Positions 25,381 to 45,030 of a DNA stretch of 64,000 nt are shown one piece after another; position 1 is the stretch's first letter, and every line of letters starts with the position of its first letter. The position numbers and the translations under genes are program-made. The notes beneath the pieces were generated by a model. It did no database searches, was not told the DNA's origin, and worked only from the letters and a program-made list of their open reading frames with translations. The stretch spans positions 1,178,001 to 1,242,000 of the forward strand of contig NZ_CP007030.1 of NCBI RefSeq assembly GCF_000227665.2, in the 5' to 3' direction. This stretch comes from Thiomicrospira aerophila AL3. Lineage in GTDB: Bacteria; Pseudomonadota; Gammaproteobacteria; Thiomicrospirales; Thiomicrospiraceae.

Positions 25381-25389
25381 TTATAAAAT

Positions 25390-25449
<60 letters not shown>

Positions 25450-31446: not shown

Positions 31447-32763
31447 GAGCCTGTAAATTAAATTGTGTAAACGCTCATAGTTTAAAATCCCCCAAAAAGG
31501 AAAAATACTATGAGCCAATTCGATCAAGAAAAACTTAAAGCCATGGCTGCTGAGCTGGCCAAAGACGTTAAAACCCAAGCCGACTTATCTCAACTTTCCG
31601 CCGCACTGCTCAAAATGACCGTAGAAGCGGCTCTCGGCGCTGAGATGGAAGCTCACCTAGGCTATGCCAAACATCAGCCATCCGAGGGTGCTAACAGTCG
31701 TAATGGCTATTCCACCAAAACCCTCAAGGGCGACCATGGTGAGGTTGATATTAGCGTACCGCGAGACCGCGAAAGCACCTTTGAGCCCGTTATGGTGAAA
31801 AAGGGTCAGACGCGCTTGACCAGCATGGATGACCAAATTCTCGCCCTCTATGCCAAAGGCATGACCACCCGTGATATCGTCGCGACCTTTCAAGAGATGT
31901 ATGGCGCGGAGGTTTCGCCCACACTCATCTCAAAAGTCACCGAAGCGGTGATGGAAAAGGTCACCCTTTGGCGTTCCCGTCCGCTCGATGAGGTTTATCC
32001 GGTGCTCTATCTCGACGGCATTGTGATCAAAGTCCGTCAAGACAAGCAGATCGTCAGAAAAACCATGTACGTCGCACTCGGCATCAACCTCTCTGGTCAA
32101 AAAGAATGCTTAGGGCTATGGCTGTCAGAAACCGAATCTTCCAAGTTCTGGTTAAGCGTATTGAATGACATTCACGCCCGTGGCGTGAAAGACATTCTTA
32201 TCGCCTCGGTCGACGGTTTAACCGGTTTTCCCGAAGCGATTAGTGCTGTGTACCCTAAAACCGATGTGCAACTGTGTATTGTTCACATGGTGCGCAATTC
32301 ACTCAAATACGTCGGCTACAAAGAGCGCAAGGCGGTAGCCACTGACCTCAAGCAGATTTACCAATCCGTTACAGAGGAAGAGGCTCTATTGGCGCTGGAG
32401 CAGTTCGAGACGAAATGGGATGCCAAATTCCCCAGTATCAGCCGTTCCTGGCGCAATCATTGGGACAATATCGCCACGGTATTCCAATACTCGCAGGCGA
32501 TTCGTAAGGTGATTTACACCACCAATGCCATTGAATCCTTGAACTCAGTGATTCGCAAGGCGATTAAAAATCGCAAACTATTCAGTCATGACAATTCGGC
32601 CTTTAAAATCATCTTTCTGGCGATTGAATCAGCCTCAAAGAAATGGACGATGCCAATTCGTGACTGGAATGCAGCAATGAACCAGTTTATGATTCTGCAT
32701 GAAGAACGCTTGCAAGCATATGTTTAACCCAACGAGCGTTTACACAGAATTATTTACAGGCTC
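31447..32763 (+). mobile_element. IS256-family insertion sequence with 8-bp target duplication
   Basis: The ends match over about 30 bp as imperfect inverted repeats beginning GAGCCTGTAAAT. The 8-bp sequence GACCTGAC flanks both sides (31439-31446 and 32764-32771), a clean target duplication. The element is 1317 bp with one transposase gene. It interrupted the 3' end of the small regulator gene now at 32750-32989. Confidence 0.93.
31510..32727 (+). CDS. IS256-family (Mutator-type) transposase
   Basis: 405 residues, the usual length. Mutator-family features include EAALGAEMEAHLGYAKHQPSEGANSRNGYSTKTL, ISVPRDREST, the first catalytic Asp in VLYLDGIVIKV, the second in IASVDGLTGFPEAI with C-x2-H (CIVHMVRNSLKYV), and the Glu in YTTNAIESLNSVIRKAIKNRKLF. 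It appears intact and the IS may still be active. Confidence 0.95.
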   Translation: MSQFDQEKLKAMAAELAKDVKTQADLSQLSAALLKMTVEAALGAEMEAHLGYAKHQPSEGANSRNGYSTKTLKGDHGEVDISVPRDRESTFEPVMVKKGQTRLTSMDDQILALYAKGMTTRDIVATFQEMYGAEVSPTLISKVTEAVMEKVTLWRSRPLDEVYPVLYLDGIVIKVRQDKQIVRKTMYVALGINLSGQKECLGLWLSETESSKFWLSVLNDIHARGVKDILIASVDGLTGFPEAISAVYPKTDVQLCIVHMVRNSLKYVGYKERKAVATDLKQIYQSVTEEEALLALEQFETKWDAKFPSISRSWRNHWDNIATVFQYSQAIRKVIYTTNAIESLNSVIRKAIKNRKLFSHDNSAFKIIFLAIESASKKWTMPIRDWNAAMNQFMILHEERLQAYV

Positions 32764-37583: not shown

Positions 37584-37795
37584 ATGTTGAAAAATAAATT
37601 ATAAGTAAATTATACCATAGAGGAAACAATTCAACCAGCTTATGCACAAAACAGTTAGGTTTTAAATTAAAACTAATTTTAGGGATTCCAACCTCAGATT
37701 ACAAATAGCCCTTTATTGATTAGGCTGTTTCAAAGCAATATTTGTCAGGTTATTTGATGTAATTGGGTACTAGCTTGCCTTCTACTTGCCCCAAA

Positions 37796-37810
37796 TTTAT
37801 AAGCATGACT
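37796..37810 (+). repeat. 15-nt direct repeat, right copy
   Basis: TTTATAAGCATGACT, identical to 36739-36753. The surrounding 37584-37920 has no supported gene. Confidence 0.6.
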
Positions 37811-37923
37811 GGCTATTTTTTGATGCTACAACACAATTTTTTGGCGTGCTGGCTCAGGTTTTAATCGGACTACTAAAGTTTTGGCCCAAAGTCATATTTC
37901 ATGGTTGTTCTGGCGTGGAATGT

Positions 37924-37952
37924 TTGACAAATCGATGTTTTTTATATACATT
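37924..37952 (+). promoter_or_regulatory. Sigma-70-like promoter of the DUF3577 cassette
   Basis: TTGACA (37924-37929), 17 bp, then TACATT (37947-37952). Transcription would start just before hairpin P1 of RNA copy 1. Confidence 0.55.
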
Positions 37953-37966
37953 TAAATTTGTTTTGA

Positions 37967-38051
37967 GTGATCTTTGATCACACAAATGCCAACATTGTTG
38001 GCACCCACGTCAGCCCCCGGTCTCATTCGCTGACACGCATTTGCGGAGACC
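37967..38051 (+). ncRNA. Structured leader RNA, copy 1 (divergent sequence, same fold)
   Basis: Order: P1 GTGATC/GATCAC (37967-37981); linker ACAAAT; P2 GCCAA-CATTG-TTGGC (37988-38002); ACCC; pseudoknot stem 1 GTCAGC (38009-38014) with GCTGAC (38029-38034); pseudoknot stem 2 GGTCTC (38019-38024) with GAGACC (38046-38051); inserted hairpin CGCA/TGCG. Every stem differs in sequence from copies 3-6, yet all pair. The CATTG loop and ACCC are invariant. Confidence 0.8.
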
Positions 38052-38070
38052 ATGTTTAATTCAAATTTTT

Positions 38071-38121
38071 ACCCATAAGGGATATATCACTCCCTTGTGG
38101 GTCGTGGTGTATCCCTTTTTT
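38071..38121 (+). promoter_or_regulatory. Attenuator-like alternative hairpins before the DUF3577 gene
   Basis: Hairpin 1: ACCCATAAGGGA (38071-38082) with TCCCTTGTGGGT (38091-38102). Hairpin 2: GGGATA (38079-38084) with TATCCC (38110-38115), followed by six T. They share GGGA, so only one can form. The RBS AGGAG and ATG follow within 30 nt. Confidence 0.75.
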
Positions 38122-38147
38122 ATTTTTAATATCTTAGGAGATATATC

Positions 38148-38849
38148 ATGACTACTGTTAATCAAAATGCTGTTCAAAACTCTAATGACTACTTTAACTT
38201 GCATACAAAAGGTTTGTGTTACGTTAATCGTTTTAGAGCAGTTTCAACTCGTAAAGATACCTTCTACTCGGTAACACTTGGTTTTTTGCGAGGCCATGTT
38301 GATGAGGTTGAAACAACTTATATCGATTGCGTTATTCGCAACGATGATGTCTTAGAGATTTTGACTCAATATCAAGACGCTATTAATGGCGACTCTAAAG
38401 TTATGGCTGTAGCCATTGTCGGTGACATTTTCGCTCAAACTTACAAAAAGCGTGATGGTTCACTTGCAGCCGGTATTAAAGGCCGACTAATTGGGTTAAA
38501 CCAATTAAAGGTCGATGGTGATGTTGTTTTTAAGCGTGAAAATGCTGATCAAGACAACGATATTCCAGTTGATCAGGTTCGCCATCAAGCGCCTGTTCAA
38601 CAACCTGTTGCACAAGCTCCTAGAGCGCGAACAGTGGCTCCAGTCACACAACCAGCGCCAGTTGCTCAGGTTCGGCAGCAGGCTCCGGCTCAACAACCTG
38701 TTGTTGCACCGGCAAACTTTGAAGGCGAGTTTTTGGATGTTGTGAAGTTGGATAAAAATGATCCAAACTTTATGGCAAAAAAAGATGAACTGAAAGCTAA
38801 TGGATACCGTTGGAATCGTGAATTAGCTTCATGGGTTTTAGCGGCTTAA
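38148..38849 (+). CDS. DUF3577 (STY4534-like) ICE replication-associated protein
   Basis: 233 residues. The N-terminal ~135 residues (DYFNLHTKGLCYVNRFRAVSTRKDTFYSVTLGFLRGHVDEVETTYIDCVI) match DUF3577, an OB-fold-like family of PFGI-1-type ICEs linked to replication. A Pro/Gln/Ala-rich linker with repeated VRQQAPxQQP units (about 145-190) leads to a small C-terminal module (LDVVKLDKNDPNFMAKKDELKANGYRWNRELASWVL). It is the first gene of the cargo region and has the full RNA leader. Confidence 0.8.
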   Translation: MTTVNQNAVQNSNDYFNLHTKGLCYVNRFRAVSTRKDTFYSVTLGFLRGHVDEVETTYIDCVIRNDDVLEILTQYQDAINGDSKVMAVAIVGDIFAQTYKKRDGSLAAGIKGRLIGLNQLKVDGDVVFKRENADQDNDIPVDQVRHQAPVQQPVAQAPRARTVAPVTQPAPVAQVRQQAPAQQPVVAPANFEGEFLDVVKLDKNDPNFMAKKDELKANGYRWNRELASWVLAA

Positions 38850-38852
38850 TCA

Positions 38853-38880
38853 CAAAAAAGGAACTTCGGTTCCTTTTTTT
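38853..38880 (+). terminator. Terminator after the DUF3577 gene
   Basis: GGAAC-TTCG-GTTCC (38860-38873) followed by seven T. It ends 19 nt before the next start codon, again hairpin then RBS. Confidence 0.85.
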
Positions 38881-38899
38881 ATATGAATGGAGGTTGTTT

Positions 38900-39157
38900 A
38901 TGGACTATCGTGAATTACTTGTAAAAGAGTTAAACAGTATAGCTAAGCATTATGTTGAGCACTGGTTTGAACAACAAGGTGAGCGCATATATGGTGAGGT
39001 ACTGATCTTTGAAGGTCGAGTCACTGGCTGGACTATTGATGAACCGCCCTTCCCTTATGAGTGGCGACCCGGTACTTATGCTGTATCTAAGGATCAGATA
39101 CTTTTGGCAGTTGGTGGTAATGATGCCGATGGCGCTGAAGATTGGATCACGGTTTGA
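38900..39157 (+). CDS. Small acidic hypothetical protein
   Basis: 85 residues from the ATG at 38900, preceded by GGAGG. Acidic, with no motif I know (HYVEHWFEQQGERIYGEVLIFEGRVTGWTIDEPPFPYEWRPGTYAVSKDQILLAVGG). The predicted fold is a small alpha/beta domain. It lies in the cassette region between terminators, so it is transcribed either by readthrough from the DUF3577 gene or from its own promoter. Small size, acidity and context make an anti-defence role conceivable but unproven. Confidence 0.6.
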   Translation: MDYRELLVKELNSIAKHYVEHWFEQQGERIYGEVLIFEGRVTGWTIDEPPFPYEWRPGTYAVSKDQILLAVGGNDADGAEDWITV

Positions 39158-39169
39158 TTTTCTTTTTTT

Positions 39170-39212
39170 CCCATCAGGGGTGTTACCCCTGGTGGGTTGG
39201 CACCCCTTTTTT
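39170..39212 (+). promoter_or_regulatory. Attenuator-like hairpin pair, divergent sequence
   Basis: Hairpin 1: CCCATCAGGGGT (39170-39181) with ACCCCTGGTGGG (39185-39196). Hairpin 2: GGGGTG (39177-39182) with CACCCC (39201-39206), then six T. Same architecture as the other attenuators with different bases, and no pseudoknot RNA upstream. Confidence 0.75.
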
Positions 39213-39227
39213 ATTTTGAGGTGTGTT

Positions 39228-39716
39228 ATGAATAAAAAAACCTATTTACCCGTATGGGAGCCAATTGATTTACTTCAAGGTGGTCATAAAGAGGCTTATT
39301 TTGAAGCAAAATTAAACGATGATGGCTCGCACTCTTACCGGTTGTTAGAATGTGATATGGACACGCTGGTTGAAGTTAATGGTGAACTTGTGCGTGGTTT
39401 AAAACCGACTAAAAAATGGCTCACCGAGTCAGAGTTTAATCGCCGCTGGATTACCAATCACTTGTGCAAACGTAATTTAGCGGTCGTGGAGTTGGCAGGC
39501 CCCTTAATTGGCAAGCTTGTCGATTTATATGATCGACGCATTGGTGGGCAGTGGCGAAGCACGTATAACACCTGTAAACACAACACCATGATGCTTTTTA
39601 TTAATCAATATGGTTTAGATGAACACCGTGCCAAACTGCTTGCAATCACTATTTGTCGCGGAGAATGTTCATTTGAGAACATTGTTTTTGAGTATAGCCT
39701 AGAAAAAAAAGGATAG
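39228..39716 (+). CDS. Hypothetical cargo protein, 162 residues
   Basis: Starts at the ATG 39228 after GAGG. No family recognised. A region with many charged and aromatic residues (KKWLTESEFNRRWITNHLCKRNLAVVELAGPLIGKLVDLYDRRIGGQWRSTYNTCKHNTMMLFIN) looks like a folded helical domain with two cysteines. It is preceded by a short-form attenuator and followed by a terminator, so it forms its own unit. Confidence 0.6.
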   Translation: MNKKTYLPVWEPIDLLQGGHKEAYFEAKLNDDGSHSYRLLECDMDTLVEVNGELVRGLKPTKKWLTESEFNRRWITNHLCKRNLAVVELAGPLIGKLVDLYDRRIGGQWRSTYNTCKHNTMMLFINQYGLDEHRAKLLAITICRGECSFENIVFEYSLEKKG

Positions 39717-39730
39717 TACATTTCACAAGT

Positions 39731-39755
39731 GGCGGCCAATCGGTCGCCCCTTTTT
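39731..39755 (+). terminator. Terminator after the 39228 gene
   Basis: GGCGGCC with GGTCGCC around a short loop, followed by CCTTTTT. One G-T pair in the stem. Confidence 0.7.
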
Positions 39756-39832
39756 ATTTTTGGGTCAGAACATTATTGATTTGTGTTTTTTGTGTAAAAT
39801 ACAAAGTAATAGCGTTTTTAACCGGTTTTGTT

Positions 39833-39919
39833 GCTCGTTGAGCGCAAAAGGCCAGCATTGCTGGCACCCTTGAAGCGTCACGACACCTGCAAGCTTCAGC
39901 CCTTTTTTTGGGTGGTGTC
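39833..39919 (+). ncRNA. Structured leader RNA, copy 2 (orphan)
   Basis: P1 GCTC-GTT-GAGC; linker GCAAAAG; P2 GCCAG-CATTG-CTGGC (39851-39865); ACCC; stem 1 TGAAGC (39871-39876) with GCTTCA (39893-39898); inserted hairpin GCCC-T7-GGGT; stem 2 GACACC (39882-39887) with GGTGTC (39914-39919). All stems differ from copies 1 and 3 but pair. No gene with a credible start follows before RNA copy 3. Confidence 0.75.
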
Positions 39920-39979
39920 ACTTCTGAGAAAGATACATTGGAACTGCACTTTCTCTTCACATCCAGTTGGATATTGCTA

Positions 39980-39995
39980 GGAGAGCTTGCTCTCC
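39980..39995. other. GGAGAG-CTTG-CTCTCC hairpin
   Basis: Perfect 6-bp stem with a CTTG tetraloop, in the gene-free stretch after orphan RNA copy 2. It could be a terminator without a T-run or part of a longer folded RNA. Confidence 0.5.
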
Positions 39996-40034
39996 ACCCC
40001 TATTTAGCGTTTATGCAGGCTGTGTGTTGCATAG

Positions 40035-40070
40035 AGGCCTTATTTAAGCTGACTTGCTTAAATAAGGCCT
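40035..40070. other. 15-bp perfect inverted repeat
   Basis: AGGCCTTATTTAAGC (40035-40049) and its exact complement (40056-40070) around a 6-nt loop; outer GAGGCC/GGCCTC and CTGT/ACAG pairings could lengthen it. The whole stretch 39920-40250 has no supported gene but several hairpins, including GTGACCC/GGGTCAC at 40209-40230. Confidence 0.65.
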
Positions 40071-40254
40071 TTGGCCTCTACACAGATATGCAGTCTATCT
40101 GTTGCCTGGCTGCCCCTTAGTGCATAAGCGCCTCGACATAATTTTCTCAATGATAGCGATGATTTAGGGATGATGATTCGCAAAAAATGCTTTTAAATGA
40201 TTTTCTTCGTGACCCTTTTACCAGGGTCACGCGGTAAGTTATTTAGGTTTTGTG

Positions 40255-40345
40255 GCTCAACTGAGCACAAAAGGCTTGCATTGCAAGCACCCATCACCGG
40301 CCCTCGACTGCGTTAGCCGGTAACGATCCCATAGGTCGTGCAGTC
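40255..40345 (+). ncRNA. Structured leader RNA, copy 3
   Basis: P1 GCTC-AACT-GAGC (40255-40266); P2 GCTTG-CATTG-CAAGC (40274-40288); ACCC; stem 1 ACCGGC (40296-40301) with GCCGGT (40316-40321); stem 2 GACTGC (40306-40311) with GCAGTC (40340-40345); inserted hairpin ACGATC/GGTCGT with one G-T pair. P1 and the inserted hairpin differ from copies 4-6. Confidence 0.8.
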
Positions 40346-40374
40346 ATGATTACAATTCATTTAATTAACCCTTC

Positions 40375-40415
40375 TAGGGATGCACTTTCCCTATGGGGCG
40401 GTGTATCCCTTTTTT
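40375..40415 (+). promoter_or_regulatory. Attenuator-like hairpins before the 40435 gene
   Basis: Hairpin 1 TAGGGA (40375-40380) with TCCCTA (40388-40393). Hairpin 2 GGGATGCA (40377-40384) with TGTATCCC (40402-40409), one G-T pair, then six T. RBS GGAG follows. Confidence 0.7.
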
Positions 40416-40434
40416 ATTAATTTGGAGATATGCC

Positions 40435-40650
40435 ATGTCAAGTTTTGAATTAGTTTTTAAATCAGCTACCCAACCGGTTTCAATGGAGCAATATGGTCTT
40501 AAAGATCTATGGCTTCATCCGATTAAAATCGATTACGGTTATTGGGGTGATGGTGAACAGCACTTCGAGGTTGAAGATGAGTGCGGCAATGTGCTCATGT
40601 CCGGTAACGCCTCTACAATCGAAGACTACTTGTCTTCGATGTGTAATTAA
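40435..40650 (+). CDS. Small acidic hypothetical cargo protein
   Basis: 71 residues (MSSFELVFKSATQPVSMEQYGLKDLWLHPIKIDYGYWGDGEQHFEVEDECGNVLMSGNASTIEDYLSSMCN). Acidic, probably a small beta-rich fold, no known motif. Start chosen at 40435 because GGAGATATGCC precedes it, the same RBS block as in neighbouring cassettes. It has the full leader: RNA copy 3, attenuator and RBS. No function assigned. Confidence 0.65.
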   Translation: MSSFELVFKSATQPVSMEQYGLKDLWLHPIKIDYGYWGDGEQHFEVEDECGNVLMSGNASTIEDYLSSMCN

Positions 40651-40663
40651 TCAAATTAACAAG

Positions 40664-40710
40664 CCCATGGGGATACATCATCCCCATGGGATCCGTGTAT
40701 CCCCTTTTTT
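40664..40710 (+). promoter_or_regulatory. Attenuator-like hairpins before the 40734 gene
   Basis: Hairpin 1 CCCATGGGGAT (40664-40674) with ATCCCCATGGG (40680-40690), perfect. Hairpin 2 GGGGATACA (40669-40677) with TGTATCCCC (40696-40704), perfect, then six T. Short form without the pseudoknot RNA. Confidence 0.8.
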
Positions 40711-40733
40711 GTTTTAAAATCGGAGATACACAA

Positions 40734-40979
40734 ATGGATAAATTGTCTTTTAAAGCGGATATTTTAAAATCTGGTCAAGCAGAACGGTGTGATGGTGTTG
40801 TTGTTGAGATAAATAACATCCTACCCTACGTCTCAATTGTCTCAAGAATGAATGAGGAGCACTCCTATTTCTTCCAAGGGGATGAAGCAATAGAGCTTTT
40901 AAGCGAGATGGAAAAAAAAGCCGATATGTTTGATGTTAGTGTAGAAGATGCACTTCTTCACTATTACCAGGGTTGGTAA
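40734..40979 (+). CDS. Small hypothetical cargo protein
   Basis: 81 residues (start MDKLSFKADILKSGQAERCDGVVVEINNILPYVSIVSRMNEEHSYFFQGDEAIELLSEMEKKADMF). Looks like a small alpha/beta domain with an acidic helix. RBS GGAGATACACAA precedes the ATG. It has only the attenuator part of the leader and follows the 40435 gene by 84 nt, so readthrough from that cassette may supply transcription. No family recognised. Confidence 0.6.
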   Translation: MDKLSFKADILKSGQAERCDGVVVEINNILPYVSIVSRMNEEHSYFFQGDEAIELLSEMEKKADMFDVSVEDALLHYYQGW

Positions 40980-41075
40980 TAACCTTTCAATTTTGCAGTG
41001 GTTTAGAGTCTGCCGCTGAGGATGAATCCTTAGTAGGTTTTTAAATTCACCTGCAAGGTCAGTCATTCAAACCTT

Positions 41076-41122
41076 ACCCACGGGGATACATTATCCCTAT
41101 GGGTCGGTGTATCCCCTTTTTT
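41076..41122 (+). promoter_or_regulatory. Attenuator-like hairpins before the 41147 gene
   Basis: Hairpin 1 ACCCACGGGGAT (41076-41087) with ATCCCTATGGGT (41093-41104), one mismatch and one G-T. Hairpin 2 GGGGATACA (41082-41090) with TGTATCCCC (41108-41116), then six T. Confidence 0.75.
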
Positions 41123-41146
41123 ATTTTTAAAATTTGGAGATATGCC

Positions 41147-41746
41147 ATGAAAACTGATAATTTCATACTCAACGAAATTGCTTTTAATTCTAACAAGCCC
41201 CATCTTTTGCATAGACATGCAGTGGGTTTAATTGCAGACCAAAAATTCACCGGAATCGTACATTTTTGGTCTGAGACATTTGCAGGAAATCCTTTCATGG
41301 ATACTGTTTACATGATTGATGGTGTGACTTTAAATAACTTGGATTTTATAGATGGTGATGATGAGCGTCAAAGACTTGTCAATCACGCACTTCATGGCCT
41401 GATTGGTCAAGATGTGGCTGCTATTCAATCTGATTTAAAGCTTGGAGAAATATTTGAATATGTTTGGGATGATGACGGTGACGACATGGGTACTTATGCT
41501 GTTCGCCGTCAATTTTCTCATGACGAAATAATCAATAACCTTCATAGAAAAATCACTAAGCCGGTTAATAAAATCGGTGAGATTTACACTGGTGGTTGCG
41601 TGAAAATAGTTGTTGATGGCTCTGATTTTATTGAATCCGTCGAAGATCCAATGGATGCAGAGTTTTTTACAGTCTATGTCAGAAATATAGATGGATTTTC
41701 AAGTTCACTCTACGATTTCGAGCGCGGCGAGCAACCTTGTTGTTAA
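41147..41746 (+). CDS. Hypothetical acidic cargo protein, 199 residues
   Basis: Start at the ATG 41147 after GGAGATATGCC. Acidic throughout (FIDGDDERQRL, YVWDDDGDDMG). The N-terminal half (LNEIAFNSNKPHLLHRHAVGLIADQKFTGIVHFWSETFAGNPFMDTVYMIDG) could be a beta-rich domain. Strong net negative charge is common in DNA-mimic anti-restriction proteins, but I see no ArdA or Ocr motif, so this is only a hint. It ends just before a terminator. Confidence 0.6.
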   Translation: MKTDNFILNEIAFNSNKPHLLHRHAVGLIADQKFTGIVHFWSETFAGNPFMDTVYMIDGVTLNNLDFIDGDDERQRLVNHALHGLIGQDVAAIQSDLKLGEIFEYVWDDDGDDMGTYAVRRQFSHDEIINNLHRKITKPVNKIGEIYTGGCVKIVVDGSDFIESVEDPMDAEFFTVYVRNIDGFSSSLYDFERGEQPCC

Positions 41747-41761
41747 ACGAGTAAAACCACA

Positions 41762-41785
41762 ACCCATACTTATGTATGGGTCTTT
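41762..41785 (+). terminator. Terminator at the start of cassette 4
   Basis: ACCCATAC-TTAT-GTATGGGT (41762-41781), then TCTTT. The equivalent hairpin at 42479 and 43802 reads ACCCACAC-TTCG-GTGTGGGT, so stem changes are compensated. Confidence 0.75.
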
Positions 41786-41810
41786 ACATTAAGCGATTTG
41801 GTATTACAAT
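41783..41810 (+). promoter_or_regulatory. Promoter of the radC cassette
   Basis: TTTACA (41783-41788), 16 bp, TACAAT (41805-41810). The -35 overlaps the tail of the preceding terminator. Start expected near 41817, just before P1. Confidence 0.65.
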
Positions 41811-41825
41811 CATTTGATGTAAGGA

Positions 41826-41916
41826 TCCACGTTGTGGAACTTAGGCTTGCATTGCAAGCACCCATCACCGGCCCTCGACTGCGTTAGCCGGTAACGATCC
41901 CTCGGATCGTGCAGTC
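41826..41916 (+). ncRNA. Structured leader RNA, copy 4
   Basis: P1 TCCAC-GTT-GTGGA; P2 GCTTG-CATTG-CAAGC (41845-41859); ACCC; stem 1 ACCGGC (41867-41872) with GCCGGT (41887-41892); stem 2 GACTGC (41877-41882) with GCAGTC (41911-41916); inserted hairpin CGATCC-CTC-GGATCG. Nearly identical to copies 5 and 6. Confidence 0.8.
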
Positions 41917-41938
41917 ATGCTTACAATTCAATTTTTTA

Positions 41939-41987
41939 CCCCATGGGGATACATCATCCCTGTGGGGTTCGGTGTATCCCCTTTTTT
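41939..41987 (+). promoter_or_regulatory. Attenuator-like hairpins before radC
   Basis: Hairpin 1 CCCCATGGGGAT (41939-41950) with ATCCCTGTGGGG (41956-41967), two G-T pairs. Hairpin 2 GGGGATACA (41945-41953) with TGTATCCCC (41973-41981), then six T. RBS AGGAG and ATG at 42012 follow. Confidence 0.8.
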
Positions 41988-42011
41988 ATTTTTCAAATCA
42001 GGAGATATGCC

Positions 42012-42473
42012 ATGTTTAAATTATCTAGCCAGCAAAAAGCCATCTTAAAAGAAGCTGAGGCAATCTATGCGCTTATGGCATCAAATGCTAGTGATGAAGT
42101 GTTTAACTCGCCGGAGTTATCCGCTGAGTTATTTAAAACTAGGTTAGTGGGAGAAGAAAGAGAGCATTTTGAAGTTCTTTTTTTGAATCAACAGCACATC
42201 ATGATTGATGTTCAAAGACTGTTTTCAGGAACTATAAATCAAGCAAGCGTTCACCCACGGGAGATCGCTAAAAAGGCCTTGGAGTTAAATGCGGCTGCAA
42301 TTGTGATAGCGCATAACCACCCATCAGGCAAAGCTAATCCATCAAAAAGTGACATTAACATGACGCGGATTGTCAAAGATGCGATGGAGCTTATTGAAGT
42401 AAAACTGCTCGATCACATTATTGTCGGCCATCATGGGCTATGGCACTCAATGGCCCAAGCAGGCGAAATATGA
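42012..42473 (+). CDS. radC: RadC/JAB-domain protein
   Basis: 153 residues from the ATG at 42012. JAB/MPN-like metal motif IVIAHNHPSGKANPSKSDI (His-x-His-x-Pro, near 100-115), with LVGEEREHFEVLFLNQQHIMIDVQRLFSGTINQASVHPREIAKKALELNAAA typical of RadC-like proteins. The N-terminal helix-hairpin-helix of chromosomal RadC is absent, as in plasmid and phage copies. RadC-like proteins are frequent in mobile elements next to anti-restriction genes; their biochemical role is unsettled. Confidence 0.88.
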   Translation: MFKLSSQQKAILKEAEAIYALMASNASDEVFNSPELSAELFKTRLVGEEREHFEVLFLNQQHIMIDVQRLFSGTINQASVHPREIAKKALELNAAAIVIAHNHPSGKANPSKSDINMTRIVKDAMELIEVKLLDHIIVGHHGLWHSMAQAGEI

Positions 42474-42478
42474 CCACA

Positions 42479-42501
42479 ACCCACACTTCGGTGTGGGTCT
42501 T
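42479..42501 (+). terminator. Terminator after radC
   Basis: ACCCACAC-TTCG-GTGTGGGT (42479-42498) followed by CTTT; first element of the next cassette. Confidence 0.75.
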
Positions 42502-42527
42502 TACATTAAGCGATTTGGTATTAAAAT
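42500..42527 (+). promoter_or_regulatory. Promoter of the 42728 cassette
   Basis: TTTACA (42500-42505), 16 bp, TAAAAT (42522-42527), matching the cassettes at 41783 and 43823. Confidence 0.65.
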
Positions 42528-42542
42528 CATTTGATGTAAGGA

Positions 42543-42633
42543 TCCACGTTGTGGAACTTAGGCTTGCATTGCAAGCACCCTTTACTGGCCCTCGACTGCG
42601 TTAGCCGGTAACGATCCCTTGGATCGTGCAGTC
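42543..42633 (+). ncRNA. Structured leader RNA, copy 5
   Basis: As copy 4, but pseudoknot stem 1 reads ACTGGC instead of ACCGGC against GCCGGT, giving a G-T wobble rather than a mismatch; the inserted hairpin loop also differs. Stem 2 GACTGC/GCAGTC ends at 42633. Confidence 0.8.
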
Positions 42634-42656
42634 ATGCTTACAATTCTATTTTTAAC

Positions 42657-42705
42657 CCCATGGGGATACATCATCCCTGTGGGGTTCGGTGTATCCCCTT
42701 TTTTT
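42657..42705 (+). promoter_or_regulatory. Attenuator-like hairpins before the 42728 gene
   Basis: Hairpin 2 GGGGATACA (42662-42670) with TGTATCCCC (42690-42698), then seven T. Hairpin 1 uses the preceding CCCCAT with ATCCCTGTGGGG, as before radC. Confidence 0.78.
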
Positions 42706-42727
42706 GTTTAAAATCAGGAGAGACACC

Positions 42728-43045
42728 ATGCTAGTTACCATTAACCAAGTAGAAAACTTTGTTTCAAAAGCCATCGCAAATCAAATTTGTGCTGATGATC
42801 TGGGTATAAGGCTTCAATGGAGATTTCAAAAGCATCTATTTGTAGCCAAATTTTATAAGTCAGAACCCATCATGCACGTTGGATTGATTAATGGCACTGT
42901 AGAGCTTGAATCAATTGAACTGCCTTATGATCCTAAAACCAACATGCAGCGCTTGGTTCAGGAGCTTAAACTTCGCAAGGTTAGTGAAGTATTGCTTCAT
43001 CAAGCTAGGCAGGTTGGTCTAGTGGATGGCGTTAAATTTCAATAG
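42728..43045 (+). CDS. Hypothetical cargo protein, 105 residues
   Basis: ATG at 42728 after AGGAGAGACACC. Sequence (VTINQVENFVSKAIANQICADDLGIRLQWRFQKHLFVAKFYKSEPIMHVGLINGTVELESIELPYDPKTNMQRLVQELKLRKVSEVLLHQARQVG) suggests a helix, a beta sheet and a C-terminal helical pair. No family recognised. It has the full leader and starts its own cassette. Confidence 0.6.
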   Translation: MLVTINQVENFVSKAIANQICADDLGIRLQWRFQKHLFVAKFYKSEPIMHVGLINGTVELESIELPYDPKTNMQRLVQELKLRKVSEVLLHQARQVGLVDGVKFQ

Positions 43046-43057
43046 CTAATTAATTTT

Positions 43058-43107
43058 ACCCTGTGGGGATACAACATCCCTGTGGGGTTCGGTGTATCCC
43101 CTTTTTT
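43058..43107 (+). promoter_or_regulatory. Attenuator-like hairpins before the 43133 gene
   Basis: Hairpin 2 GGGGATACA (43065-43073) with TGTATCCCC (43093-43101), then six T. Hairpin 1 (CCCTGTGGGGAT with ATCCCTGTGGGG) has four G-T pairs and is the weakest of the set. Short form without pseudoknot RNA. Confidence 0.72.
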
Positions 43108-43132
43108 CTTTCAAAAATTAGGAGATACACCA

Positions 43133-43795
43133 ATGAATATCACAATCAATAACGAGCAAAAACTGTTTGTAATCAAAAACGACTATGGCGTAACCTGTCA
43201 AGGTTTTACGAATGTTTATGAAGACCTGATTCAAGTCAAAAAAAAGCTTGGTCTCAATGCTCCATTGGATTCAGAGATTGGAACCATTGAGCAGTATTCT
43301 GAATACCAAGCAACAATGAAGGTGCTGCGAGAGAAGGGTGGACTGAAAACCACTTTCTATAAATACAGAACACCAAAGAAAGTGCAGAGTATTCTTGAGG
43401 GCTATCGCAAGTCTGAAGAAAAAATACGCATTTTTTATGGTGACTATGAATCCGGTCGAGATTGGCTGGAGGAATATGACACGGTGGGGCGTGTAAGTCG
43501 CTCTGGTGGCTTGTTAAAAGTGCCTATTCTTGTAGCTGATGATGAATGCGGCGGCCCCGCCCTGCTGGATCATTGCATTGTTAAGTTGCAAGACGTGACA
43601 ACCGGTAAGGTTTTGTGGCAACACAAAAACTACCAGCAGCCAAAATTCCACATTCAGGAAGTAAGTGAGTTTGCACACGGACTAACTCACGAAGTTCTTG
43701 TAAATGAGAAAGTCCATGCCCGTTTTAGCTCACTAGCAAAAGCAGCGCATTGGGTGGCGTTTATGTCTGGCGAAACATCTTGCTGTCCTAACTAA
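43133..43795 (+). CDS. Hypothetical cargo protein, 220 residues
   Basis: ATG at 43133 after AGGAGATACACCA. Contains a run resembling a helical then beta domain (GGLKTTFYKYRTPKKVQSILEGYRKSEEKIRIFYGDYESGRDWLEEYDTVGRVSRSGGLLKVPILV). The RIFYGD...GRDW...GRVSRSGG pattern looks conserved and may be a small beta-barrel. Similar proteins are common on plasmids, but I know no function. Four Cys, two adjacent in the C-terminal ETSCCPN. Confidence 0.62.
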   Translation: MNITINNEQKLFVIKNDYGVTCQGFTNVYEDLIQVKKKLGLNAPLDSEIGTIEQYSEYQATMKVLREKGGLKTTFYKYRTPKKVQSILEGYRKSEEKIRIFYGDYESGRDWLEEYDTVGRVSRSGGLLKVPILVADDECGGPALLDHCIVKLQDVTTGKVLWQHKNYQQPKFHIQEVSEFAHGLTHEVLVNEKVHARFSSLAKAAHWVAFMSGETSCCPN

Positions 43796-43801
43796 CCCAC
43801 A

Positions 43802-43825
43802 ACCCACACTTCGGTGTGGGTCTTT
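43802..43825 (+). terminator. Terminator after the 43133 gene
   Basis: ACCCACAC-TTCG-GTGTGGGT (43802-43821) and CTTT, identical to the one at 42479. Confidence 0.75.
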
Positions 43826-43850
43826 ACATTAAGCGATTTAGTATTAAAAT
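43823..43850 (+). promoter_or_regulatory. Promoter of the ardC-like cassette
   Basis: TTTACA (43823-43828), 16 bp, TAAAAT (43845-43850). Confidence 0.65.
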
Positions 43851-43865
43851 CATTTGATGTAAGGA

Positions 43866-43956
43866 TCCACGTTGTGGAACTTAGGCTTGCATTGCAAGCA
43901 CCCATTACCGGCCCTCGACTGCGTTAGCCGGTAACGATCCCCTGGATCGTGCAGTC
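43866..43956 (+). ncRNA. Structured leader RNA, copy 6
   Basis: As copy 4, with pseudoknot stem 1 extended to TTACCGGC/GCCGGTAA (8 bp) and a different loop in the CGATCC/GGATCG hairpin. Stem 2 ends at 43956. Confidence 0.8.
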
Positions 43957-43978
43957 ATGCTTACAATTCTATTTTTAA

Positions 43979-44028
43979 CCCCATGGGGATACATCATCCC
44001 TGTGGGGTTCGCTGTATCCCCTTTTTTT
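43979..44028 (+). promoter_or_regulatory. Attenuator-like hairpins before the ardC-like gene
   Basis: Hairpin 1 CCCCATGGGGAT (43979-43990) with ATCCCTGTGGGG. Hairpin 2 GGGGATACA (43985-43993) with TGTATCCCC (44013-44021), then seven T. RBS AGGAG follows. Confidence 0.8.
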
Positions 44029-44052
44029 GTTTTTCAAATTAGGAGATACATC

Positions 44053-45030
44053 ATGTCTATGGATAAAGTTTTTCAAAAAGTTACTGATCAAATTGTTGCT
44101 GCGCTTGAAGCGGGTGTTGATGGCTCTTTTGAGTTGCCATGGGTTCGCATGAAATCCGTGGCAATCAATGCTAAAACCGGTCGTCGTTTAGTGGGTATTT
44201 CTCAACTTCTTTGCTCTATGAGCATGGTTGAGCATGGCTTTGAAACCAATAAATGGTTAACCATGAAACAAGCGAATGAACTTGGCGGCAAGATCGATAA
44301 AGGGTCAAAGTCAACGCTAGTGTTCTGGCTTCGACCTTTTCTTGAGGTTTTGGTTGATGGCAAAAAGAAATTGATTTCGCCTGAAGGCAATCAGCTTCAT
44401 GAAGCTATGGAAGCCGGTGAACCAATTATTTGGTCATATCGCTTTGCGCCCTATTTTAATGTGGAGCAAATTAGTGATCTACCCGATGAAATGTATGAGC
44501 CAGTGAATCAAACATTGGCACATGGTCTAGGGGATGGATTTGAGCCTATCCAAGAGGCTGAAGAGTTTGTAAGGATGTTGCAGTCTTCTACAGATCCTCT
44601 CAAACTGATACATAAAGGAGTTTCGGCGCATTATGCGCCGGGGCTGGATCAGGTAGTCATGCCTCAGCGTGAAAAGTTTAAGTCTGAATTAGGCTACTAC
44701 TCAACAATTTTTCACGAAATCGGGCATTGGACGGGGCATCAGTCTCGTAATGCCCGTGAGGGAATTGTGAACTTTGATCGTTTTGGCTCTTCTAAATACG
44801 CTTTTGAAGAATTGGTGGCTGAATTATCAGCATCATTCAAGATGGCTGAAATGGGCTTGGAGCGTGAAGTGCGCGAAGATCACATTCATTACATCGCTGA
44901 CTGGATCAAGGTTTTAAAAAATGATCCCAAAGCAATATTTAAAGCAGCACAGGATGCAGCGCGAGCGGTGCGTTATGTCAACAAACTGGTCGATGAACAT
45001 CAACCGGCTTTGTTTGAATCTGTTGCTTAA
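44053..45030 (+). CDS. ArdC-like antirestriction protein (ssDNA-binding zincin)
   Basis: 325 residues from the ATG at 44053. The N-terminal domain (DKVFQKVTDQIVAALEAGVDGSFELPWVRMKSVAINAKTGRRLVGISQLLCS) resembles the ArdC ssDNA-binding domain. A zincin-like metallopeptidase domain follows, with HEIGHWTGH near residue 220 and a downstream Glu (FEELVAELSASF). ArdC-type proteins protect incoming conjugative DNA from type I restriction. It is the last gene of the cassette region and has the full RNA leader; a strong terminator follows. Confidence 0.85.
   Translation: MSMDKVFQKVTDQIVAALEAGVDGSFELPWVRMKSVAINAKTGRRLVGISQLLCSMSMVEHGFETNKWLTMKQANELGGKIDKGSKSTLVFWLRPFLEVLVDGKKKLISPEGNQLHEAMEAGEPIIWSYRFAPYFNVEQISDLPDEMYEPVNQTLAHGLGDGFEPIQEAEEFVRMLQSSTDPLKLIHKGVSAHYAPGLDQVVMPQREKFKSELGYYSTIFHEIGHWTGHQSRNAREGIVNFDRFGSSKYAFEELVAELSASFKMAEMGLEREVREDHIHYIADWIKVLKNDPKAIFKAAQDAARAVRYVNKLVDEHQPALFESVA

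Follow-up and report, generated by a model that had tools for sequence, protein, structure and literature searches.

In this study, we analysed a stretch of 64,000 nucleotides (nt) of Thiomicrospira aerophila AL3 (contig NZ_CP007030.1; G000:C1:1178001-1242000, hereafter the window), which contains most of an integrative and conjugative element (ICE) of the PFGI-1/SPI-7 class. ICE proteins above the curated cut-offs were a type I topoisomerase, PFL_4669, PilL2, a TOL-type TraD, and a PFL_4706-type ATPase, together with a MobH relaxase downstream of the window, and a single-strand-binding (SSB)-like protein and a tyrosine recombinase gave model matches below the cut-off only. A perfect direct repeat of 65 bp overlapping tRNA matches was found at window positions 25385-25449 and at G000 1266805-1266869 (= L002:10805-10869); the repeats are probably the attachment sites of the ICE, and based on their positions the element probably has a length of about 63.5 kb. 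Computation revealed two RNA modules in this ICE, namely a 5' pseudoknot (module 1, the knot) and a Shine-Dalgarno (SD) switch in front of the genes (module 2), both of which recur in related elements, with alternative pairings whose sequences change together. In the window they are arranged as follows, where P1 and P2 are hairpins, S1 and S2 the two pseudoknot stems, and ORF an open reading frame.

37924..37952, + strand, sigma-70-like promoter before copy A, TTGACA-17-TACATT (consensus match only)
37962..38051, + strand, copy A with P1, P2 (37988-38002), ACCC, S1 (38009-38014/38029-38034), S2 (38019-38024/38046-38051, by eye), and the inserted hairpin
38072..38147, + strand, SD switch, segments 1-6, before the DUF3577 gene
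38148..38849, + strand, DUF3577 gene (PF12101 above cut-off), predicted SSB-like OB fold (fold entry 38148-38546)
39170..39227, + strand, SD switch without pseudoknot, 12 nt 3' of the preceding ORF
39826..39919, + strand, copy B (orphan), 5' side of a noncoding RNA candidate
39920..40140, + strand, conserved noncoding structured region behind copy B
40248..40345, + strand, copy C
40369..40434, + strand, SD switch before a gene for 71 amino acids (start 40435)
40664..40733, + strand, SD switch without pseudoknot, before the gene at 40734
41077..41146, + strand, SD switch without pseudoknot, before the gene at 41147
41783..41810, + strand, promoter-like site before copy D, TTTACA-16-TACAAT, within a dyad
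41820..41916, + strand, copy D
41939..42011, + strand, SD switch before the RadC-like JAB gene (start 42012)
42537..42633, + strand, copy E
42656..42727, + strand, SD switch before the gene at 42728
43059..43132, + strand, SD switch without pseudoknot, before the gene at 43133
43860..43956, + strand, copy F
43979..44052, + strand, SD switch before the ArdC-like antirestriction gene (start 44053)

An earlier sequence-only reading of this DNA had described six copies of one structured leader RNA with an H-type pseudoknot, and all six (A-F) were recovered on the + strand where it had placed them. Five of them precede a gene, as it had said, and the orphan, copy B, precedes a conserved noncoding structure. 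Whole-genome searches revealed three further copies downstream (G000 1245124, 1259439, and 1261405); all nine lie inside the ICE on the + strand, and a 13-base pattern gave 9 forward and 0 reverse matches in the own genome. From 5' to 3', the fold consists of P1, P2, ACCC, and the pseudoknot, in which S1 and S2 first contribute their 5' strands one after the other and a small hairpin then separates their 3' strands, that of S1 coming first. P1, a hairpin interrupted by an internal loop, is longer than first described, since the A-rich linker that had been set apart from it is mostly its 3' strand (by eye, TTTG/CAAA in A-C and TAAG/CTTA in D-F). P2 is a hairpin of six pairs with an ATT triloop closed by C-G. 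This corresponds to the CATTG loop that had been called invariant, which holds for the 15 copies of the window subtype and does not extend to outside relatives. A leader peptide starting at an ATG after the pseudoknot was rejected, as the ATG is missing in copies B, G, and H and the frames differ.

The covariation of the knot was analysed in 15 copies (12 distinct) from three genomes, namely the nine own copies, two copies of the same subtype in genome G059, and four in a Methyloprofundus metagenome-assembled contig (L232). P2 and S1 displayed 97.2% standard pairs with 21 cells changed on both sides, and their covariation score of 0.461 in this alignment, which had been fitted to the tested structure, exceeded that of shuffled sequences (0.190 +/- 0.029; 0/500 shuffles) and also of slid controls; the number of pair types was unremarkable (119/500 shuffles). 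A MAFFT alignment of 9 copies supported the same covarying fold. In each of the 15 copies S2 displayed 6/6 pairs, as determined by script for 13 of them and by eye for copy A and L232:5581. Thus, the family of structured leaders stands, and so do three independent types (A, B, and C/D) of compensatory change. They do not amount to six independent copies, since copies C-I (7/9 own copies) are near-identical from P2 onward. Within the D type, P2 is exchanged from GCTTGC/GCAAGC (copy D) to GCCAAC/GTTGGC (L232:7460), and the orphan S1 becomes GAGGC/GCCTC in L232 (by eye).

At the gathering score, Rfam 15 matched only a partial tRNA in the whole window and left the motif unmatched, and at E<=5 nothing credible was found in 37600-44200, where the sub-threshold matches (mir-1245, snoRNA, Trp leader, and others) were judged to be chance. 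The sequence-only reading had considered STAXI as a candidate. STAXI pseudoknots, like the window motif, lie near SSB, topoisomerase, and antirestriction genes; they are described from Enterobacteriales as tandem arrays of two or three pseudoknots in which UUCG is frequent (PMC2864571). We rejected this identity, as RF01728 remained unmatched at the gathering score and at E<=5 (37600-44200) and the window motif has no tandem pseudoknots.

Whether the motif is new had been left undecided by that reading; it lacks an Rfam match, yet it has a described relative in radC RNA (RF01754), which shares its position and topology. According to the part of PMC2864571 consulted, which names no function for the radC motif, radC RNA, too, occurs in several copies per element of this ICE class and precedes DUF3577 among other genes, and the window motif stands in this very context, upstream of DUF3577, RadC, or antirestriction genes. 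Both have a 5' hairpin, CCC, and an H-type pseudoknot whose S1' and S2' are separated by an inserted hairpin; the first hairpin of radC RNA has a three-base loop as in the window motif, and in the five radC leaders examined the same kind of SD switch follows. In contrast, the window motif comprises P1, P2, and one pseudoknot, whereas radC RNA has two tandem pseudoknots and no CATTG hairpin. The switch after a window knot can be drawn as a pseudoknot as well, but it lies about 20 nt away and also occurs before genes without module 1, so the second tandem pseudoknot of radC RNA is missing here. The RF01754 model did not match the window motif at the gathering score (40 bits) or at E<=5. Based on shared position and topology without a model match, the window motif is a divergent branch of the radC kind and not a radC member by score.

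A search for DUF3577 relatives resulted in at least 542 stretches, of which 80 loci were kept. Rfam was run on 34 of these, picked by hand, and recognised only the radC subtype; in 15/34 loci, a radC RNA preceded the DUF3577 match at a distance of up to about 0.6 kb. Of 274 genomes searched, one (G321) harbored RF01754, in four copies with one directly before DUF3577, and a descriptor scan showed that in 3/4 radC copies the first hairpin is followed by two pseudoknots, each with an inserted hairpin. Compared with the window motif, this topology has one knot more and no P2. DUF3577 leaders unflagged by Rfam carried one knot, several of them also with P1, P2, and CCC as in the window. The 16 distinct outside knots displayed 97.1% standard pairs and a covariation score reached by 0/500 shuffles, and their S2, which had not been used in model building, was paired in 99% of cells. 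Scanning of 79/80 loci (one was too short) revealed a knot with inserted hairpin at a score >=45 in 34/79 DUF3577 leaders (some of these knots are radC RNAs and some near-duplicates) versus 0.17% of shuffles and 1/73 control regions, and at >=40 in 45/79 versus 1.2% and 5/73. By eye, DUF3577 leaders of three Vibrionaceae plasmids (L224, L226, and L229) showed a knot with inserted hairpin and a longer S1-S2 insertion, perhaps a further subtype. A DNA similarity search of plasmids with copy D and its switch gave no match. Among viral contigs, at least 120 stretches contained the pattern, and the one full match to a descriptor of P2 plus pseudoknot (L081) was judged by eye to be chance.

The fold of module 1 also bears on whether the knot may be the aptamer of a small-molecule riboswitch with module 2 as its expression platform. 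H-type pseudoknots with an extra hairpin are known in riboswitches (preQ1-II), and several copies per element with one fold and mixed downstream genes would fit. However, loops L1 and L2 and the P2 loop are not common to the subtypes, and by eye only CCC is conserved unpaired across them; besides, the genes near the motif with a Pfam match (3/10 scanned proteins) are DUF3577, RadC-like, and ArdC-like, none of them metabolic. We consider such a riboswitch improbable.

The SD switch is the part that the sequence-only reading had missed; it is located 3' of the pseudoknot and also precedes genes that lack a knot. Its six segments lie between the five gene-leading knots and their genes and before four nearby genes. 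In the window they read ACCC(C) (segment 1), GGGGATACA (2), ATCCC (3), TGTGGGG (4), GGTGTATCCCC followed by a T-run (5), and a GGAGATACACC-like SD region (6). Segments 1:4 and 2:3 form one long hairpin, and segment 5, an anti-SD, pairs either with segment 2, an SD mimic, or with the SD itself in segment 6. A further 15 genomes have the switch in ICE stretches, with as many as about 15 genes of a stretch preceded by it (a few matches look like chance), and it was also identified in 5/6 plasmid stretches (Vibrio, Aliivibrio, Comamonas, and Pseudomonas). Its segments change together, as in a copy of L172 reading GGGCAAGC / GCGCTTGTTCC / GGAGCAAGTGC. A triple co-change was seen by eye in Methyloprofundus (L232:6365-6425), where a diverged switch lacks the T-run and reads GGGATTC / GAATCCC / GGAGATTCG. 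Among the top-ranked results of the open-access literature on ICE leader RNAs, radC/STAXI, DUF3577, and ICEclc-type elements, the switch was not described.

Candidates for permutation tests were chosen without using the 2:5 or 5:6 pairing, and near-duplicates were dropped at a string similarity of 0.8 in the permutation, folding, T-run, and accessibility sets. In 54 non-redundant leaders, both segment 2:segment 5 and segment 5:SD exceeded permuted partners (z of 9.7 and 8.0; 0/1000 each), and in 68 leaders the result was 0/300 each. Thus, an anti-SD:SD pairing with co-changes and a competing anti-SD:SD-mimic pairing were both found, as expected of a translational SD switch. The switch score test was passed by 20/22 placed DUF3577 starts (L156 and L158 failed, L157 was unplaced; the passes include repeats, i.e., three copies in G306 and near-identical ones elsewhere) versus 5/339 control ORFs, which themselves resemble the switch, and in a second set 51/80 DUF3577 starts passed the strict test. 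ViennaRNA folded ten leaders of the window ICE as two hairpins, 1:4+2:3 and 5:6, so that the SD is buried. With no filter on SD pairing, the mean predicted SD accessibility of 97 control genes was 0.38, whereas 68 leaders reached only 0.23 and 32 non-redundant DUF3577 starts 0.16. Masking segments 3/4 raised it in 48/58 leaders, and masking segment 2 did not raise the mean.

Pairing of an anti-SD with an SD requires mRNA, which argues against the elements acting as single-stranded DNA (ssDNA) during conjugation, like STAXI or Frpo-like ssDNA promoters. The adjacent antirestriction and SSB-like genes, the location of all nine copies on one strand, and the promoter region of copy D, which is foldable as ssDNA, would agree with such a role; yet the non-Watson-Crick cells of the knot helices count G-U 22 versus A-C 4, as for a + strand RNA (with alignments that lean to G-U), and by eye the -35 and -10 of copy D do not lie together on one ssDNA hairpin arm as in the Frpo type. 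This makes an ssDNA function very improbable.

Transcription attenuation would make the knot a cis-acting antitermination element that mediates read-through of terminator-like 2:5 hairpins across the operon; HK022 put RNA is an example of such an element. The ten strictly selected switches of the window ICE have 6-7 consecutive T in the interval from segment 4 to the SD, T>=5 follows segment 5 in 16/51 non-redundant leaders versus 3.4 expected (one leader skipped), and the region contains 14 terminator-like sites versus 5.7 in shuffles, with the knot at the likely transcript start and terminator-like hairpins at genes further along. The T-run is, however, missing in about two thirds of leaders, whereas anti-SD:SD pairing is general. 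Based on this distribution, a terminator role is possible in the window ICE, not in general, and we regard attenuation as the overall explanation as unlikely.

The surroundings of the two modules differ. Knot-bearing switches follow a long gap after the last ORF, and the four window switches without a knot lie 12, 13, 13, and 97 nt 3' of an ORF. Promoter-like sites were detected just 5' of P1 in four copies (37924, 41783, 42500, and 43823) and not before copies B and C; in the region as a whole, 12 such sites were found versus 14.9 expected from shuffles. Knots stand at possible transcript starts and knotless switches 12-97 nt after an ORF, an arrangement suggestive of the knot as the transcript's input and of the switch as the output at the individual genes. 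The same facts could also mean that the knot only stabilises the mRNA or blocks decay dependent on the 5' end and that module 2 is run by translational coupling to the preceding gene, with promoters predicted directly 5' of P1 and three of four internal switches beginning 12-13 nt after a stop codon, from where a terminating ribosome could cover segment 1. We judge this rather unlikely as well, as the distance to the stop codon is highly variable in other ICEs and a pseudoknot of three helices is needless for a plain stability hairpin. The promoter-like site of copy D lies in a dyad TTACATTAA...TTGATGTAA (window 41783-41823), with similar ones seen by eye before E, F, I, and L232:7400; this operator-like palindrome suggests an ICE repressor.

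Altogether, we are inclined, with moderate confidence, to read knots and switches as modular cis-regulatory mRNA leaders of PFGI-1/SPI-7-class ICEs that are off by default. Their input would be module 1, the pseudoknot located where the transcript likely begins, and their output module 2, the switch in front of each of these genes and of some neighbouring ones. By default in the cell, we infer, the long hairpin 1:4 + 2:3 would leave segment 5 free to pair with the SD, so that translation is off; in the on state, segment 2 would capture segment 5 and free the SD, forming an H-type pseudoknot together with 1:4. In translational riboswitch platforms, mutually exclusive anti-SD and anti-anti-SD pairings likewise hide or free the SD; unlike these, the window-type switch is found in front of numerous genes of a single element and frequently lacks an aptamer-like part. 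As a T-run follows segment 5 in the window ICE, 2:5 may there double as an intrinsic terminator.

Several results weigh against this reading. If 2:5 is a terminator in the window ICE, the 2:5 state would be off and not on. Covariance models R1 and R2, built from outside knots, matched none of the window copies; R2 matched in 6/369 genomes with 3-8 copies each, four of which had supplied its sequences. Model R3, built from the window knots, recovered in the 369 genomes its 9 own copies plus three matches at E 0.002-0.005 that were judged by eye to be chance, and it gave nothing below E 0.1 in 18 outside ICE loci. Since R1, R2, and R3 do not cross-match, homology of the subtypes rests on position, topology, and the common second module, not on sequence. 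Furthermore, 34/79 DUF3577 leaders had no knot scoring 40, and 29/80 DUF3577 starts failed the strict switch test, 12 of them still with a hairpin and a weaker 2:5 score. In both sets of DUF3577 starts (20/22 and 51/80), the best of several start codons was compared with one for the controls, and the loci are partly near-duplicates. The mean SD accessibility of 0.18 in 58 leaders selected for both pairings is partly circular, since these were chosen for SD pairing, and its rise to 0.27 upon masking of segments 3/4 is modest and thermodynamic only. Mismatches in segment 5:SD revealed no clear G-U excess (G-U 43 versus A-C 30; permuted 18.7 versus 16.8).

As to what the knots may sense, the product of the DUF3577 gene behind copy A (PF12101 above cut-off, the STY4534 model below its cut-off) gave a structure model with a pLDDT of 87.8 and an OB-like strand order, and SSB proteins were the top matches of this model in the PDB (E 2e-4, TM about 0.5). 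T4 gp32 is described as an autogenous repressor that binds a 5' pseudoknot of its mRNA and spreads from it across the ribosome-binding site (PMC535899). The copy A leader resembles this gene 32 operator in carrying a 5' pseudoknot upstream of the ribosome-binding site on the mRNA of an SSB-type protein, here a predicted one; it differs in its SD switch, as the operator is described there with a less structured 3' part and no SD mimic (PMC535899). By analogy, the DUF3577 protein is the likeliest candidate for the input of the 5' knots, in a gp32-like autogenous circuit, an idea that we hold only tentatively; against it, the protein is tied to the leader RNA by position and predicted fold only. 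A wider and somewhat more doubtful version is a post-transcriptional regulon of the ICE in which this protein, perhaps with the orphan RNA, reads the amount of ICE ssDNA. Free of ssDNA, it would bind the 5' pseudoknots and keep the SD switches off, and upon replication, transfer, or entry, ssDNA would titrate it, leading to joint translation of many ICE genes.

Behind orphan copy B, noncoding DNA extends for about 220 nt, and this region gave no match in 61 other genomes of the order. The region is kept in L232 (L232:5630-5890) with changes on both sides in 5/61 predicted pairs (two sequences, too few for statistics), and by eye stems differ between the two and loops such as TTGGAACTGCA stay. 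It is possibly an ICE noncoding RNA with two conserved loops able to pair with each other. Pairing in trans of its GCAGTC loop with S2 was rejected, as this loop pairs inside the orphan RNA. Elsewhere in the element, a transposase of 405 amino acids, which we take to be of IS256 type, occurs in two copies (window 31510-32727 and L001:786-2003), the second inside the conjugation gene region.

Overall, a widespread ICE class, with DUF3577 relatives in the at least 542 stretches found, seems to place a large part of its replication and antirestriction region under the control of RNA leaders. If the switch works as drawn, one RNA logic would time the production of antirestriction, RadC-like, and SSB-like proteins, and the switch model would provide a functional hypothesis for the radC motif. 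Timing by such leaders would, if true, bear on how these ICEs settle in new hosts.

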